Assembly (NCBI RefSeq): GCF_022808775.1 | Contig: NZ_JAKZLA010000001.1 | Span: 124,001-188,000, forward strand | Direction of reading: 5' to 3' | DNA: 64,000 nt | Source of the DNA: Geothrix terrae | GTDB lineage: Bacteria; Acidobacteriota; Holophagae; Holophagales; Holophagaceae | Shown here: positions 2,485-7,552 of the stretch, in pieces | How the letters are laid out: every line of letters starts with the position of its first letter | Position numbering within the stretch: the stretch's first letter is position 1 | Notes under the pieces: generated by a model | What the model saw: the letters and a program-made list of their open reading frames with translations, nothing else | Told to the model about the DNA's origin: nothing | The model's database searches: none | Translations under genes and position numbers: made by a program

Positions 2485-4047
2485 ATGGGCAGTGAGCGGA
2501 TCGCCATTTTCGACACCACCCTCCGCGACGGAGAGCAGTCGCCCGGCTGCAGCATGAACCTGGACGAGAAGCTGCTGATGGCGCGCCAGCTGGAGGCGCT
2601 GGGCGTGGATGTCATCGAGGCCGGCTTCCCGGTGGCCTCCGAGGATGACTTCGCCGCCGTGCAGGCCGTGGCCCGCGAATGCCGGAAACCCGTCATCGCC
2701 GCCCTCTGCCGCGCCCTTCCCAAGGACATCGAACGGGCCTGGCAGGCGGTCTCCGGTGCCGCCCGGCCGCGCATCCACACCTTTCTGGCCACCTCGGACA
2801 TCCACCTGGAGTACAAGCTCCAGAAGTCCCGCGAAGAGGCCCTGGCCATGATCCGCGAGGGCGTGCGCACGGCCAAGGGCTTCACGCCGGACGTGGAGTT
2901 CTCCGCCGAGGACGCCACTCGCAGCGACTGGGACTTCCTGGTGGCGGTGTTCACCGCGGCCATCGAGGAGGGGGCGACGGTCCTCAACGTGCCCGACACC
3001 GTGGGCTACACCGTGCCCGACGAGTACGGCCGCCTCATCCGGTACCTGCGGGACAAGGTCCCGGGCATTGACGGCGTCACCATCAGCGTCCACTGCCACA
3101 ACGACCTGGGCCTGGCGGTAGCGAACTCCCTGGCGGCGGTGGCCGCGGGGGCCCGCCAGGTGGAGTGCACCGTGAACGGCATCGGCGAGCGGGCCGGCAA
3201 CGCCGCCCTCGAGGAAGTCGTCATGGCGCTGTCCGTGCGCCGGGACGCGATGCCCTACGAGACGGGCATCCACCGGGAGGCCATCACACGCGCCAGCCAG
3301 ACCCTGGCCAACATCACCGGCGTCCAGGTGCAGCCCAACAAGGCCATCGTGGGCCGGAACGCCTTCGCCCACGAGAGTGGCATCCACCAGCACGGCATGC
3401 TGAGCCACCGCTCCACCTACGAGATCATGACCCCCGAATCCGTCGGGGCGAACCGCACGAGCCTGGTGCTGGGCAAGCACTCGGGCCGCCACGCCCTGGG
3501 CAAGCGCTTCGAGGAGCTGGGCTACCCCCTGGACAAGGGGGCCCTGGAGAAGGCCTACAAGCTCTTCACCAAGCTCAGCGACCAGAAGAAGGAGATCTTC
3601 GACGAGGACCTCCTGACCATCGTGCGCGACGGACTCACGCATATTCCCGAGGCCTTCAAGCTCCGCGCGGTGCAGGCCACGGCTGGCACCGCCATGTTCG
3701 CGACGGCCCTGGTCACCCTGGCCGGCGAGGCGGGAGAGGCCACGGAGACCGCCATGGGCGACGGCCCGGTGAACGCGGTCTTCGCGGCGGTGGACAAGCT
3801 CACGGGCCTGAAGGGGAAGCTGGTGGATTTCCGCGTGTATTCCATCACGGGCGGCGCGGACGCGGTGGGGGAGGTGTTCGTCCAGGTCGAGTTCGGCGGC
3901 GTCGTCCAAGGGGGGAAGGGCGCCAGCACGGACATTGTCGAGGCCAGCGCCCGGGCCTACCTGAACGCCTCCAACAAGGTGCTGTTCGCCCGCCGCTCCG
4001 CCGAGACACCCGCCGCTGGTCCCGTCCGCCGCCAGGGGGTGATGTGA
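2485..4047 (+). CDS. leuA: 2-isopropylmalate synthase
   Basis: Condenses acetyl-CoA with 2-oxoisovalerate, the committed step of leucine synthesis. The 520-residue length matches the long LeuA type with a C-terminal allosteric leucine-binding domain (about residues 390-510). The catalytic barrel shows [11 protein letters not shown] at residues 10-20 and the metal-binding VHCHND with His203 and His205. The ATG at 2485 has AGGAG eight bases upstream. It is the first gene of the rightward leu unit. Its stop overlaps the next small ORF as ATGA. Feedback by leucine is known for the family. Confidence 0.97.
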
Positions 4048-4178
4048 TGAAGGAAATCCTGCCGCAAGGCCTTGAATCCGCCGACGCCAGGACGGACATT
4101 GCCGTCCAGGCCGCCGCGCTGCCCGCCCCGTCCCCAGAGGATGGAGCGGACCCTGATCAGTACCTGTGGGGAGTCTGA
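4047..4178 (+). CDS. 43-residue ORF between leuA and leuB, function unknown
   Basis: The ATG overlaps the leuA stop (ATGA) and the TGA ends two bases before the leuB GTG, so the frame fills the gap exactly. The product starts [16 protein letters not shown], has an Ala/Pro-rich middle and ends DPDQYLWGV. It has no membrane segment or signal peptide. The leuB ribosome binding site lies inside its last codons, so translating it would couple leuA to leuB. It could be a real small protein or only a coupling ORF. It is too short for a family call. Confidence 0.45.
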
Positions 4179-4180
4179 AC

Positions 4181-5317
4181 GTGGAAGCCCGCATCACCCT
4201 TCTTCCCGGCGACGGCGTGGGCCCCGAGGTGGTCCGCGAGGCGGCCGCCTGCCTCACCGCTGTGGCCAAGGCCTTCGGCCACCAGTTCCACCTGGAGGAA
4301 GCCCTGATCGGTGGCGCGGCCGTGGACGCCACGGGGGATCCGCTGCCGGCGGACACCCTCGCCACATGCCAGGCCGGCCATGCGGTGCTCCTGGGCGCCG
4401 TGGGCGGGCCCGCCTGGGATCGCCACCCGCGCGAGCAGCGTCCCGAGTCGGGTCTGCTGCGCCTGCGGCGCGCCCTGGGCCTCTACGCCAACCTGCGCCC
4501 CGTCAAGGTCCACCCCGCCCTGGAGGACGCCTCGCCCCTCCGCCCGGAGGTGGTCCACGGCACGGACCTGATGATCGTCCGAGAGCTGGGCGGCGGCCTC
4601 TATTTCGGAGAGCCCCGGTCCTTCTCGGAGGAGCGGGCCGTGAACACGCTGCCGTACACCCGCACCGAGGTCGAGCAGGTCGCCCGGGTGGCCTTCGAGC
4701 TGGCCGCCGGCCGCCGCCGCAGGCTGGTGTCCGTGGACAAGGCCAACGTGCTGGAGACCTCCCGCCTCTGGCGGCACGTGGTGGATGAGCTGGCTCCGGC
4801 CTATCCCACGGTCAAGGTCTCCCACGCCTATGTGGACAGCTTCGCCATGGCCCTCATCACCCGGCCCCGCGACTTCGACGTGGTGCTGACGGAGAACCTC
4901 TTCGGGGACATCCTCAGCGACGAGGCCGCGGTACTCGCGGGCTCGCTGGGCCTGCTGCCCTCGGCCAGCCTGGGCGGTCCCGTGGGCCTCTACGAGCCCA
5001 TCCACGGCTCCGCGCCGGACATCGCCGGGAAGGATGCGGCGAACCCCATCGGGACCATCCTCTCCGCGGCCATGCTCCTCCGCCACAGCCTCCGGCTCGA
5101 GGCCGAGGCCCGGGCCCTGGAATCCGCGGTGGACCGCGTCCTCAAGGGCGGCCATGGCACCTCGGACCTGGGAGGCCTCAAGCACCACCACGGCACCCAG
5201 GCCCTGGGCGCCAAGATCCGCGACGCCATCCGCCCCCCCGGCGCCAAGGGGGCCCGGCTGGCCGACTCCGCCTACGCCTGGTGTGGTTCGCCCGAGGGTG
5301 CCCGCAGCCATCTCTGA
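4181..5317 (+). CDS. leuB: 3-isopropylmalate dehydrogenase
   Basis: NAD-dependent oxidative decarboxylation of 3-isopropylmalate to 2-oxoisocaproate, the third step of leucine synthesis. The protein has 378 residues, and the N-terminus [14 protein letters not shown] and the late motif [20 protein letters not shown] are diagnostic. I place the start at GTG 4181, seven bases after GGGGAG. An in-frame GTG at 4166 would add five residues but lies inside the upstream small ORF and has no better site. It follows leuA and precedes the ilv attenuators by 39 bp, so read-through into ilv is possible. Confidence 0.95.
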
Positions 5318-5356: not shown

Positions 5357-5461
5357 ATGCCTGCCACCTTTGCCCGCATCGACGTGATCCCGCCCTTCCG
5401 AGTGCGGGCCATCGTCGTGATTACCGGGCTGCCCGGGCTGGTACTGCGGCTGGCGGGCTAG
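5357..5461 (+). CDS. Leader peptide 1 (34 codons) of the leu-ilv attenuator
   Basis: A short ORF starts 39 bp after the leuB stop. The C-terminal half is IVVITGLPGLVLRL, so ten of fourteen residues are Ile, Val or Leu. The control run uses ATT and GTA, codons rare in the neighbouring genes, which favour ATC and GTG. The stop codon TAG touches the antiterminator arm of the following hairpin set. This is the layout of classical ribosome-mediated attenuation. No strong ribosome binding site is visible. The ORF may be served by the leuA-leuB transcript. Confidence 0.75.
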   Translation: MPATFARIDVIPPFRVRAIVVITGLPGLVLRLAG

Positions 5462-5517
5462 GGGCGGGGACGGCAGCTTCCGGATCCCGGCCCCGCACCT
5501 CCAGGCGGGGCCTTTCT
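5461..5517 (+). terminator. Attenuator 1: competing antiterminator and terminator hairpins
   Basis: The terminator is GGCCCCGC (5489-5496) with GCGGGGCC (5505-5512), eight perfect pairs and an 8-base loop, followed by TTTCT. The alternative fold pairs GGGGCGGGG (5461-5469) with 5485-5494, with one bulged G and one G-U pair, and consumes the terminator's left arm. A ribosome stopped at the leader TAG would cover the 5' arm and allow termination. Stalling at the Ile/Val/Leu run would leave it free. The folds were worked out by eye, without energies. Confidence 0.75.
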
Positions 5518-5592
5518 ACATCGGCCCGACCCCCTTCGAAATCGATTCTCCTGAGGATTCCCATGACCCCCCCATATGGCCTGACTTCCCGG

Positions 5593-5620
5593 TTGACTTT
5601 TCCCGCGGGATCCCTAAAAC
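5593..5620 (+). promoter_or_regulatory. Candidate sigma-70 promoter for the second leader and the ilv operon
   Basis: TTGACT (5593-5598) and TAAAAC (5615-5620) are separated by 16 bp, with five and four matches to the consensus hexamers. Transcription would begin near 5626-5628, only two to four bases before the leader-2 ATG at 5630, so the leader peptide would be translated from an essentially leaderless mRNA. It lies downstream of attenuator 1 and so gives ilv an independent entry point. Confidence 0.5.
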
Positions 5621-5629
5621 TCGTCGCCC

Positions 5630-5755
5630 ATGAGCCTCTCCCACCTCGACCACTCGGCTGCTGCGGCGATGTCGCCCGCAGTGGCGCGCCCCGTGGCCGA
5701 CCTGGTGGCCATTCCCGCCGTGCTGATTATTAGCGGCGAGGTGGGGGCCCCCTAG
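5630..5755 (+). CDS. ilvL: Leader peptide 2 (41 codons) of the ilv attenuator
   Basis: A 41-residue ORF that directly precedes a terminator-like hairpin in front of ilvD. Its second half (VARPVADLVAIPAVLIISG) is rich in Val, Leu and Ile. It contains tandem ATT-ATT Ile codons 33-34, rare in this GC-rich genome, six bases before the antiterminator 5' arm. When the ribosome reaches TAG it would cover that arm. The position of the regulatory codons and stop fits the E. coli ilv/leu attenuation model. The symbol ilvL is given by analogy, since leader peptides are not conserved in sequence. Confidence 0.8.
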   Translation: MSLSHLDHSAAAAMSPAVARPVADLVAIPAVLIISGEVGAP

Positions 5756-5810
5756 ACGTTCTCGGAACCAACCGAAACCGGCCCCGCACCTCGAACGATG
5801 CGGGGCCTTT
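5737..5810 (+). terminator. Attenuator 2: competing antiterminator and terminator hairpins before ilvD
   Basis: The terminator is GGCCCCGCA (5780-5788) with TGCGGGGCC (5799-5807), nine perfect pairs and a 10-base loop, then TTT. The antiterminator is CGAGGTGGGGGCC (5737-5749) with 5780-5793, thirteen pairs with a single bulged G at 5786. Both folds use 5780-5788 and are mutually exclusive. The left antiterminator arm lies inside the last codons of leader 2. The terminator stem is nearly identical to that of attenuator 1, which suggests duplication. Confidence 0.82.
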
Positions 5811-5863
5811 CCACATCTGGTCCTGTCATCCCCGAGGTCGGTGGCCTTCCACAGAGGAAGACC

Positions 5864-7552
5864 ATGTCAGACGCAGGACAACCCCTCAACCGCCGCAGCC
5901 GGGTCATCACCCAGGGGCCCGATCGCGCCCCGGCCCGGGCCATGCTCAAGGCCATCGGCTTCACGGACGAGGACCTGGCGAAGCCCATCATCGGCATTGC
6001 GAACACCTGGACCGAGATCGGCCCCTGCAACTACCACCTGCAGGAGCTGGCGGAGCGCGTGAAGGCCGGCGTCCGCGCCGCTGGCGGCACGCCCATGGAG
6101 TTCTGCACGGTCTCCATCAGCGACGGCATCACCATGGGCACCGAGGGCATGAAGGCCTCCCTGGTGAGCCGCGAGGTCATCGCCGATTCCATCGAGCTGG
6201 TGGCCCGGGGCAACGCCTTCGACGCGCTGGTCTGCCTCTCCGGCTGCGACAAGACCAACCCCGGCGTGGCCATGGCCCTGGCCCGCCTGGACATCCCTGG
6301 CCTGATCCTCTACGGCGGCTCCACGGCCTCGGGGCACTGCGGCGGCAAGGACCTCACGGTGCAGGACGTCTTCGAGGCCGTGGGGGCCCACAGCGCCGGC
6401 CGCCTGGACGACGCGGGCCTGAAGGAAGTGGAGGATGCCGCCTGTCCCGGCGCCGGTGCCTGTGGCGGCCAGTTCACCGCCAACACCATGTCCGCCAGCC
6501 TGGAGCTCCTCGGCCTGAGCCCCATGGGCCTCAACGGCATTCCCGCGGAGGATCCCCGCAAGGGCGAGGCCGCCGAGACTTGCGGGCGCCTGGTGATGGA
6601 GCTGTTGAAGCGCGACCTGCGTCCCAGCGCCATCCTCACCCGCGAGGCCTTCGAGAACGCCGTGGCGGCCGTGGCAGCGACGGGCGGCTCCACCAACGCT
6701 GTGCTGCACTACCTGGCCCTGGCCAGGGAGGCGGGCGTGCCCTTCACGCTGGAGGACTTCGACCGCGTCAGCGCGCGCACCCCGCTGCTGGCGGACATGA
6801 AGCCCGGCGGGCGCTTCATGGCGCCGGACCTCTACGCCGCCGGCGGCATCCGCCTGGTGGCCAACCGCCTGCTGGAGGGCGGGCTCATCCACGGCGCGGC
6901 CCTGACCGTGACCGGCCGCACGCTGGGCGAGGAACTGGCCGGCGCGCTGGAGACGCCCGGGCAGGAGGTGGTGCGACCCTTCGACCGGCCTCTGAAGCCC
7001 AGCGGCGGCCTCGTGATCCTGCGGGGCAGCCTGGCGCCGGAGGGCTGCGTCATCAAGGTGGCGGGTCACGAGCGCCTTCACCACACGGGCCCCGCCCGCG
7101 TCTTCGAGCACGAGGAGGACGCCTTCGCGGCCGTGCAGGCAGGCCGCATCGACCCCGGCGACGTGGTGGTGATCCGCTACGAGGGCCCGAAGGGCGGTCC
7201 CGGCATGCGTGAGATGCTGGGGGTCACGGCGGCCCTGGTGGGCGCCGGCCTCGGCGAATCCGTGGCGCTCCTCACGGACGGCCGGTTCTCCGGGGCCACC
7301 CGGGGCCTCATGGCGGGCCATGTGTCCCCGGAGGCGGCCGTAGGCGGCCCCATCGCCCTGGTGCGCGAGGGCGACACGGTGGTCTTCGACATCCCCTCCC
7401 GCCGCCTGGACCTGAAGGTGCCGGAGGCGGAGCTGGCGAGGCGCCGGGCCGAGTGGAAGGCCCCGGCGCCACGCTACCGGACGGGGGTCTTCGCCAAGTA
7501 CGCCGCCACGGTCGCCAGCGCGGCCGAGGGCGCCATCACCCTGGCCCAGTGA
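5864..7552 (+). CDS. ilvD: Dihydroxy-acid dehydratase
   Basis: Dehydrates dihydroxyisovalerate and dihydroxymethylvalerate to the 2-oxoacid precursors of valine and isoleucine. From ATG 5864 the protein has 562 residues, the usual IlvD length, and AGAGGA lies ahead of this start. An in-frame ATG at 5798 falls inside the attenuator-2 terminator stem, so I reject it. Candidate Fe-S cysteines are Cys55 (IGPCNYH), Cys128 (LSGCDKTNP) and Cys200 (GAGACGGQF). It is the first structural gene after the tandem attenuators and is followed ten bases later by ilvB. Confidence 0.97.

Follow-up and report, generated by a model that had tools for sequence, protein, structure and literature searches.

The leuB-ilvD locus

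The window analysed here is a 64 kb stretch of the 3.43 Mb genome of a soil bacterium (G000) of Geothrix, a genus of the phylum Acidobacteriota, class Holophagae. The gene order, with names taken from the translations, is leuA, leuB, a gap of 546 nt, ilvD, ilvB, ilvN and ilvC, and upstream of leuA lie leuC and a LysR-type gene in divergent orientation. At the level of LeuB, the identity is 97% with Geothrix paludis SG195 and 92% with Geothrix fuzhouensis SG12, and a gammaproteobacterial origin is rejected on this ground. The gap between leuB and ilvD holds two short open reading frames, each paired with a hairpin, here termed A and B in that order, and the features of the locus are as follows.

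2485-4047: leuA, named from its translation
4166..5317, + strand: leuB, 3-isopropylmalate dehydrogenase, upstream gene of the putative read-through transcript (from the ORF list; homologues 90-97% identical in the tandem clade)
5357..5461, + strand: leader ORF A, 34 codons, MPATFARIDVIPPFRVRAIVVITGLPGLVLRLAG then stop, frame open in 19/19 homologues
within 5357..5461, + strand: predicted control codons of ORF A, ending IVVITGLPGLVLRL, Leu-dominated
5461..5465, + strand: core of arm 2 of candidate attenuator A, GGGGC, overlapping the ORF A stop and pairing with 5490-5494 (from the fold and kinetic profile)
5489..5512, + strand: putative terminator hairpin of A, arm 3 at 5489-5496, arm 4 at 5505-5512, tail UUUCUAC
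5593..5621, + strand: promoter-like element for the B transcript, TTGACT-N17-AAAACT (or TAAAAC with N16), kept in Geothrix B homologues
5630..5755, + strand: leader ORF B, 41 codons, MSLSHLDHSAAAAMSPAVARPVADLVAIPAVLIISGEVGAP then stop, frame open in 14/14 homologues and the other forward frames in 0/14
within 5630..5755, + strand: predicted control codons of ORF B, ending LVAIPAVLII, with the rare ATT ATT
5737..5749, + strand: arm 2 of candidate attenuator B, CGAGGUGGGGGCC, inside the last ORF B codons, forming 13 pairs with 5780-5793 with one bulge
5757..5777, + strand: region between the arms of B, with hairpin UCGGAACCAACCGA; its A counterpart in other species is TCGGAACCACCGA (from folds and alignment)
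5780..5807, + strand: putative terminator hairpin of B, arm 3 at 5780-5788, arm 4 at 5799-5807, tail UUUCCAC
5864..7552, + strand: ilvD, dihydroxy-acid dehydratase, first gene of the predicted regulated block ilvD-ilvB-ilvN-ilvC (from the ORF list and ilvD orthologues)

No leader was seen before leuA itself, where a 5' hairpin is no better than those of shuffled sequences; the stretch at 2353-2484, between the LysR-type gene and leuA, is AT-rich and divergent, with a palindrome-like sequence, tattacttatgtaatcata.

Leader ORFs and their codons

The original prediction placed two ORFs rich in Ile, Val and Leu (ILV) codons, each with a hairpin, in the gap between leuB and ilvD; both are present at the positions given, and they are the only such loci in the 64 kb. 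A detector for an ATG ORF of 20-60 codons with an ILV-rich end, followed within 75 nt by a GC hairpin and then T, was run on both strands of the window, where it returned A and B and no other locus, and on 20 simulated windows, where it returned nothing; its thresholds had been chosen after A and B were known. The hairpin of A has the sequence GGCCCCGC...GCGGGGCC at 5489-5512, its stem being nearly identical to that of B, as remarked earlier. The stem GGCCCCGCACCTC with an ACCTC continuation occurs in the whole genome at A and B only. A terminator idiom used throughout the genus was considered as the cause of this identity and rejected, since the five further stems of this sort in the genome are unlike these two, being short palindromes of 20 nt. 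Both hairpins, on the + strand, are omitted by a simple terminator scan because each tail has a run of just three T.

The frames were followed in an alignment of 19 A homologues and 14 B homologues, the latter including genera g4, g5 and g6, and in every one the leader frame is open with length differences in threes; ORF A homologues measure 102, 105 or 108 nt without the stop, and the distance from the leuB stop to leader A is 16-40 nt. Of the last 20 codons read in the leader frame, 43% (A) and 46% (B) are ILV codons; the remaining forward frames give 5-10%. The rare codon ATT accounts for 15/34 (44%) of the Ile codons of leader ends in A and 36/40 (90%) in B, against 7/136 (5%) over seven genes of the region, and the enrichment of both ILV codons and rare ATT is limited to the leader frame. 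The two leaders differ in what they would read, for in the decision zone, the ten codons before the predicted switch, A has 64 Leu, 22 Val and 3 Ile of 190 codons and B has 38 Ile, 34 Val and 15 Leu of 140.

The full peptide sequences are not conserved, as is usual for leader peptides, and a BLOSUM-based codon-substitution test on the full ORFs gave no clear coding signal, a test that is uninformative for leader peptides. Across the seven genomes that carry both units the last ten codons of A are 92% identical and its arms 100%, and codons 25-34 of B are 97% identical and its arms 3 and 4 100%; the comparison stretches reach 50% (leuB-A gap), 71% (first 17 codons of A), 69% (from the A hairpin to the promoter-like element) and 87% (end of leuB). 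The ILV codons and arms of this clade are thus conserved as much as, or more than, the end of leuB, and in its A hairpin the stem is invariant and the loop variable.

Alternative folds and the predicted switch

An antiterminator exclusive with the terminator had been proposed for both units, and such a pairing is present in both, but it stands above shuffled sequences in B only. For B the proposed pairing of 13 pairs with one bulge proved to be the minimum-energy fold of the arms (-30.5 kcal/mol, against -19.3 for the terminator). Only 1/500 shuffles pairs as well as the window's B arms, the pairing is stronger than 497-500 of 500 shuffles in each of the ten distinct Geothrix homologues and than 498/500 in genus g5, and it is weaker in g4 and g6, where 98, 44 and 57 of 500 shuffles are as good. 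The hairpin between the arms would bring arm 2 and arm 3 together. For A the energies are similar (terminator -18.3, antiterminator -29.6 kcal/mol), but 460/500 shuffles pair at least as well as the window's arms and the Geothrix homologues likewise fail to exceed shuffles. Folding each whole leader separately, as the original prediction had advised, distinguishes B from shuffles (z -3.3) and does not do so for A (z -0.4). The search of relatives that it also advised found both leaders conserved; as for compensatory changes, the B arms have one two-sided change, which is within the shuffle range. No Rfam covariance model, T-box included, matched at its gathering score, and chance matches alone were returned at E up to 10.

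As the antiterminator pairing of A is not above chance, A has to be argued from its conservation and from its relatives, and it may be asked whether B is the sole working attenuator, with A a leuAB terminator behind a decaying leader and without an amino-acid response. The pairing result is what this explanation would expect, and in species with A only the hairpin is followed by a poor tail (GUUCCCG, GCUGACU) and preceded by a variable ILV cluster (L097, L101). We consider it unlikely nonetheless, since in genomes that also carry B the last ten codons and the arms of A show strong conservation, its frame stays open in 19 genomes whose leader lengths differ by multiples of three, and the first units of family f2, described below, are strong.

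That both units would act as switches is suggested by a kinetic profile, in which only the RNA visible downstream of the ribosome before arm 4 exists is folded. In this model the antiterminator probability is mostly 0.5-0.9 with the ribosome on the 3' ILV codons and drops to about 0-0.4 at the end of the ORF, and the drop is seen in all A and B homologues, in the cases fused to LeuB and in both f2 units. In every Geothrix homologue the predicted switch point lies just 3' of the last ILV codons, at SGEV.. in B or T-G-stop in A; VIISGEVG of leader B is also present in genus g6. When the leader is folded to equilibrium for every ribosome position, with arm 4 present, the terminator usually wins and the positions are not discriminated, so any switch must be kinetic and the model depends on the order of folding. 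Known attenuators do switch kinetically.

The putative terminators of the window are conserved GC hairpins of 8-9 bp with three U in their tails, and termination may be partial given the longer U tract of the Geothrix trp leader. Weak U tracts of this kind would also fit hairpins that affected ilvD translation or mRNA decay rather than transcription, but the ilvD ribosome binding site (about 5852-5860) is outside the hairpins and the U tracts are classical in the g6 and f2 relatives, which makes this explanation very improbable.

A promoter-like element before leader B

Upstream of leader B the promoter-like element has a layout that recurs before nearly all Geothrix B leaders: TTGAC(A/T), 16-17 nt, a hexamer ending in CT, 6-8 nt and then ATG. 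Ten Geothrix B homologues keep TTGAC(A/T) together with a hexamer whose second base is A and whose last two are CT, and equivalents are present in genera g5 and g6 and absent in g4. A strict sigma-70 scan of the window did not match the element before B. In the window the ATG of ORF B lies 8 nt after the -10-like hexamer, a spacing kept in most homologues (at L104 a first ATG is 2 nt past the hexamer and a second 8 nt past). A transcription start 7 nt past the hexamer would hit or adjoin this ATG, and the B mRNA is therefore probably leaderless, starting at or next to its ATG.

Distribution in Geothrix and nearby genera

Both units were found in seven sampled Geothrix genomes, and other genomes have A alone, B alone or an A apparently fused to the C-terminus of LeuB. 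A LeuB tree places the genera g4-g6, which have B only, outside Geothrix, and within the genus it resolves A-only lineages, a B-only clade (G009, G019, G034), the A+B clade and a clade F. The A+B clade, to which the window belongs, consists of the seven genomes plus G007, which lost B and ilvD. Given the conservation across these seven genomes, the single-unit relatives and the tandems of f2, the best-supported reading is one of two consecutive ribosome-mediated attenuators, of which A would sit on leuAB read-through and B behind a promoter-like element of its own.

Clade F lacks a separate leader. The ancestral tail of LeuB is replaced by ..VILPT, ..VILPS, ..AVILP or degenerate ends, and the leuB stop is followed by arms and hairpins of the A type, mostly with a better U tract and with the same predicted switch. 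Leader A is seemingly fused in frame to the end of leuB in seven genomes of the genus (L005/L125, L106, L108, L111, L122, L123, L124).

The units A and B have in common the hairpin between the arms (TCGGAACCA(A)CCGA) and comparable in-frame ends (VLRLTG-stop and VLIISGEVGA), which suggests that the two are of common descent.

Several genomes depart from this layout. At two leuB-ilvB junctions (L085, L088) ilvD lies outside the operon, in G007 and G012; G007 retains A alone and G012 retains A and B before ilvB, which provides a natural test of the purpose of each unit. In G015 (L096/L161) ilvD is spread over two frames, which points to a pseudogene or to an error in the assembly, and G039 and G046 (L107, L109) have neither leader nor hairpin, with ilvB directly after leuB.

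Tandem leaders elsewhere in the class

Serial leaders are not confined to Geothrix. In family f2 of the same class, whose genomes span 3.5-12 Mb, two serial leaders precede ilvD in 4/6 genomes with an ilvD locus (examples are MFPTIAIVIIVVVVIRLTS and MINSNLIGFNNLSNTVAPVLGLAVSAVVDVIIVVVVVIIVISSAGPPG), each with a hairpin of 9-12 bp and a long U tract, and the remaining two, G080 and G081, have a single leader. The f2 arms pair better than most shuffles (0-42/500 as good) and the predicted switch again lies just past the ILV codons. In G077, G078 and G083 arm 2 of the first unit comes right after the stop, as in A, and arm 2 of the second is inside the last codons, as in B, so an ancestral tandem seems likely. 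Before the first f2 leader, past a likely promoter of the tandem, the sequence ggccaagaaga is conserved (L197-L199). Among 36 ilvD loci from 28 other Acidobacteriota families one chance-looking match and no tandem was found; this stricter detector, which asked for 50% ILV codons over the final 15, would not pick up the B of the window.

Other amino-acid operons of the class carry leaders too. The Geothrix trp leader, of textbook form, ends in GAWWWRAGSDGSLCEA and is followed by a hairpin with a U tract; probable trp attenuators lie before trpE at L260 (688-829), L261 (769-910) and L262 (- strand, 769-914), and the trpE leaders carry WWW, YWW or W codons and have a hairpin with a U tract. Near hisG in an f2 genome lies a textbook His leader, MLLAAQHHHHHVHHSYPQGRKMPV, with a hairpin of 14 bp (L271, - strand, 1076-1230). 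Attenuation thus appears to be in general use in the class. The hydrophobic nature of the ILV-rich peptides and their conserved C-terminal motifs might be taken to indicate functional small proteins followed by ordinary terminators, but the N-terminal halves diverge freely, conservation tracks not just the codons but also the nucleotides of the arms in the RNA, the leaders adjoin terminators before ilv genes in every case and the trp and his leaders of the class have the same plan, so that this explanation too is very improbable.

Proposed mechanism

The reading we favour, with a probability of roughly 0.8, is that two ribosome-mediated attenuators lie in series between leuAB and ilvDBNC, A on leu read-through and responding to Leu and Val, and B responding to Ile, Val and Leu. 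In each, a ribosome stalled at the ILV codons would leave arm 2 uncovered, and its pairing with arm 3 would form the antiterminator so that transcription continues, whereas a ribosome that reaches the last codons would cover arm 2 and allow arms 3 and 4 to form the terminator.

Attenuator A would act on transcripts coming from leuAB and read mainly leucine (and valine), and attenuator B would act both on transcripts that have passed A and on those from its own promoter, reading isoleucine and valine and also leucine. As leucine synthesis needs the products of the ilv genes, a shortage of leucine would lead A to let leu transcripts continue into ilv. The ilv genes would thereby be raised together with leu under leucine shortage, and alone under shortage of isoleucine or valine. 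Read-through transcripts would have to clear both A and B, and the decision zone of B still has a Leu codon.

A fuller version is possible, though we hold it only tentatively: that the pair forms a two-input device, in which A reads leucine on leu read-through and B reads isoleucine and valine on read-through and on a separate leaderless transcript, that tandems of this kind are ancient in the class, and that in one Geothrix clade the C-terminal codons of LeuB itself (..VILPT stop) have become the ilv sensor.

Relation to known attenuators

In the enteric ilvGMEDA and leuABCD leaders, branched-chain codons control the ilv and leu genes, each with a single unit and not after leuB. A branched-chain leader peptide, again as a single unit that does not follow leuB, is found at ilvBNC of Corynebacterium glutamicum (PMC11857589). 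The Listeria Rli60 and Staphylococcus aureus ilvD attenuators are closer in position, with the same type of leader rich in branched-chain codons and a terminator/antiterminator directly before ilvD, but they are single units at the 5' end of the operon, in Firmicutes and with CodY control (PMC5864092, PMC5794164). A leader ORF at the very 5' end of its RNA, as predicted for B, is known from trpL of Sinorhizobium meliloti, which is a single unit for tryptophan (PMC7298713).

The original prediction regarded tandem units as unusual. This needs qualification within the class, where they extend beyond one Geothrix clade to f2, and is in keeping with the description of the tandem attenuators of Salmonella mgtCBR as a singular example by their authors (PMC3641672). 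The likeness to mgtCBR is that of two short ORFs in series, each affecting transcription into the operon, with additive signals as proposed here for A and B; in Geothrix and f2 two complete leader/terminator units are present in series. The mgtCBR signals are ATP and proline, acting within one shared 5' leader on a target of Mg transport and virulence (PMC3641672), whereas both Geothrix units are located between biosynthetic genes and are predicted to respond to branched-chain amino acids, and B has a promoter-like element of its own. Almost no attenuators with an assigned function have been reported for Acidobacteria (PMC2965389), and a literature search found no paper on ilv attenuation in Acidobacteria or Geothrix. 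The mechanism of attenuation is itself known, and for the class no earlier description of such paired switches seems to exist.

If the reading of two serial attenuators is right, Geothrix would have two amino-acid attenuators with different codon preferences stacked inside one biosynthetic operon. Its relatives, with one unit, the other, both, or one apparently merged with an enzyme, would form a natural series for how serial attenuators compute, and the same series bears on how leader peptides may arise, duplicate and vanish.
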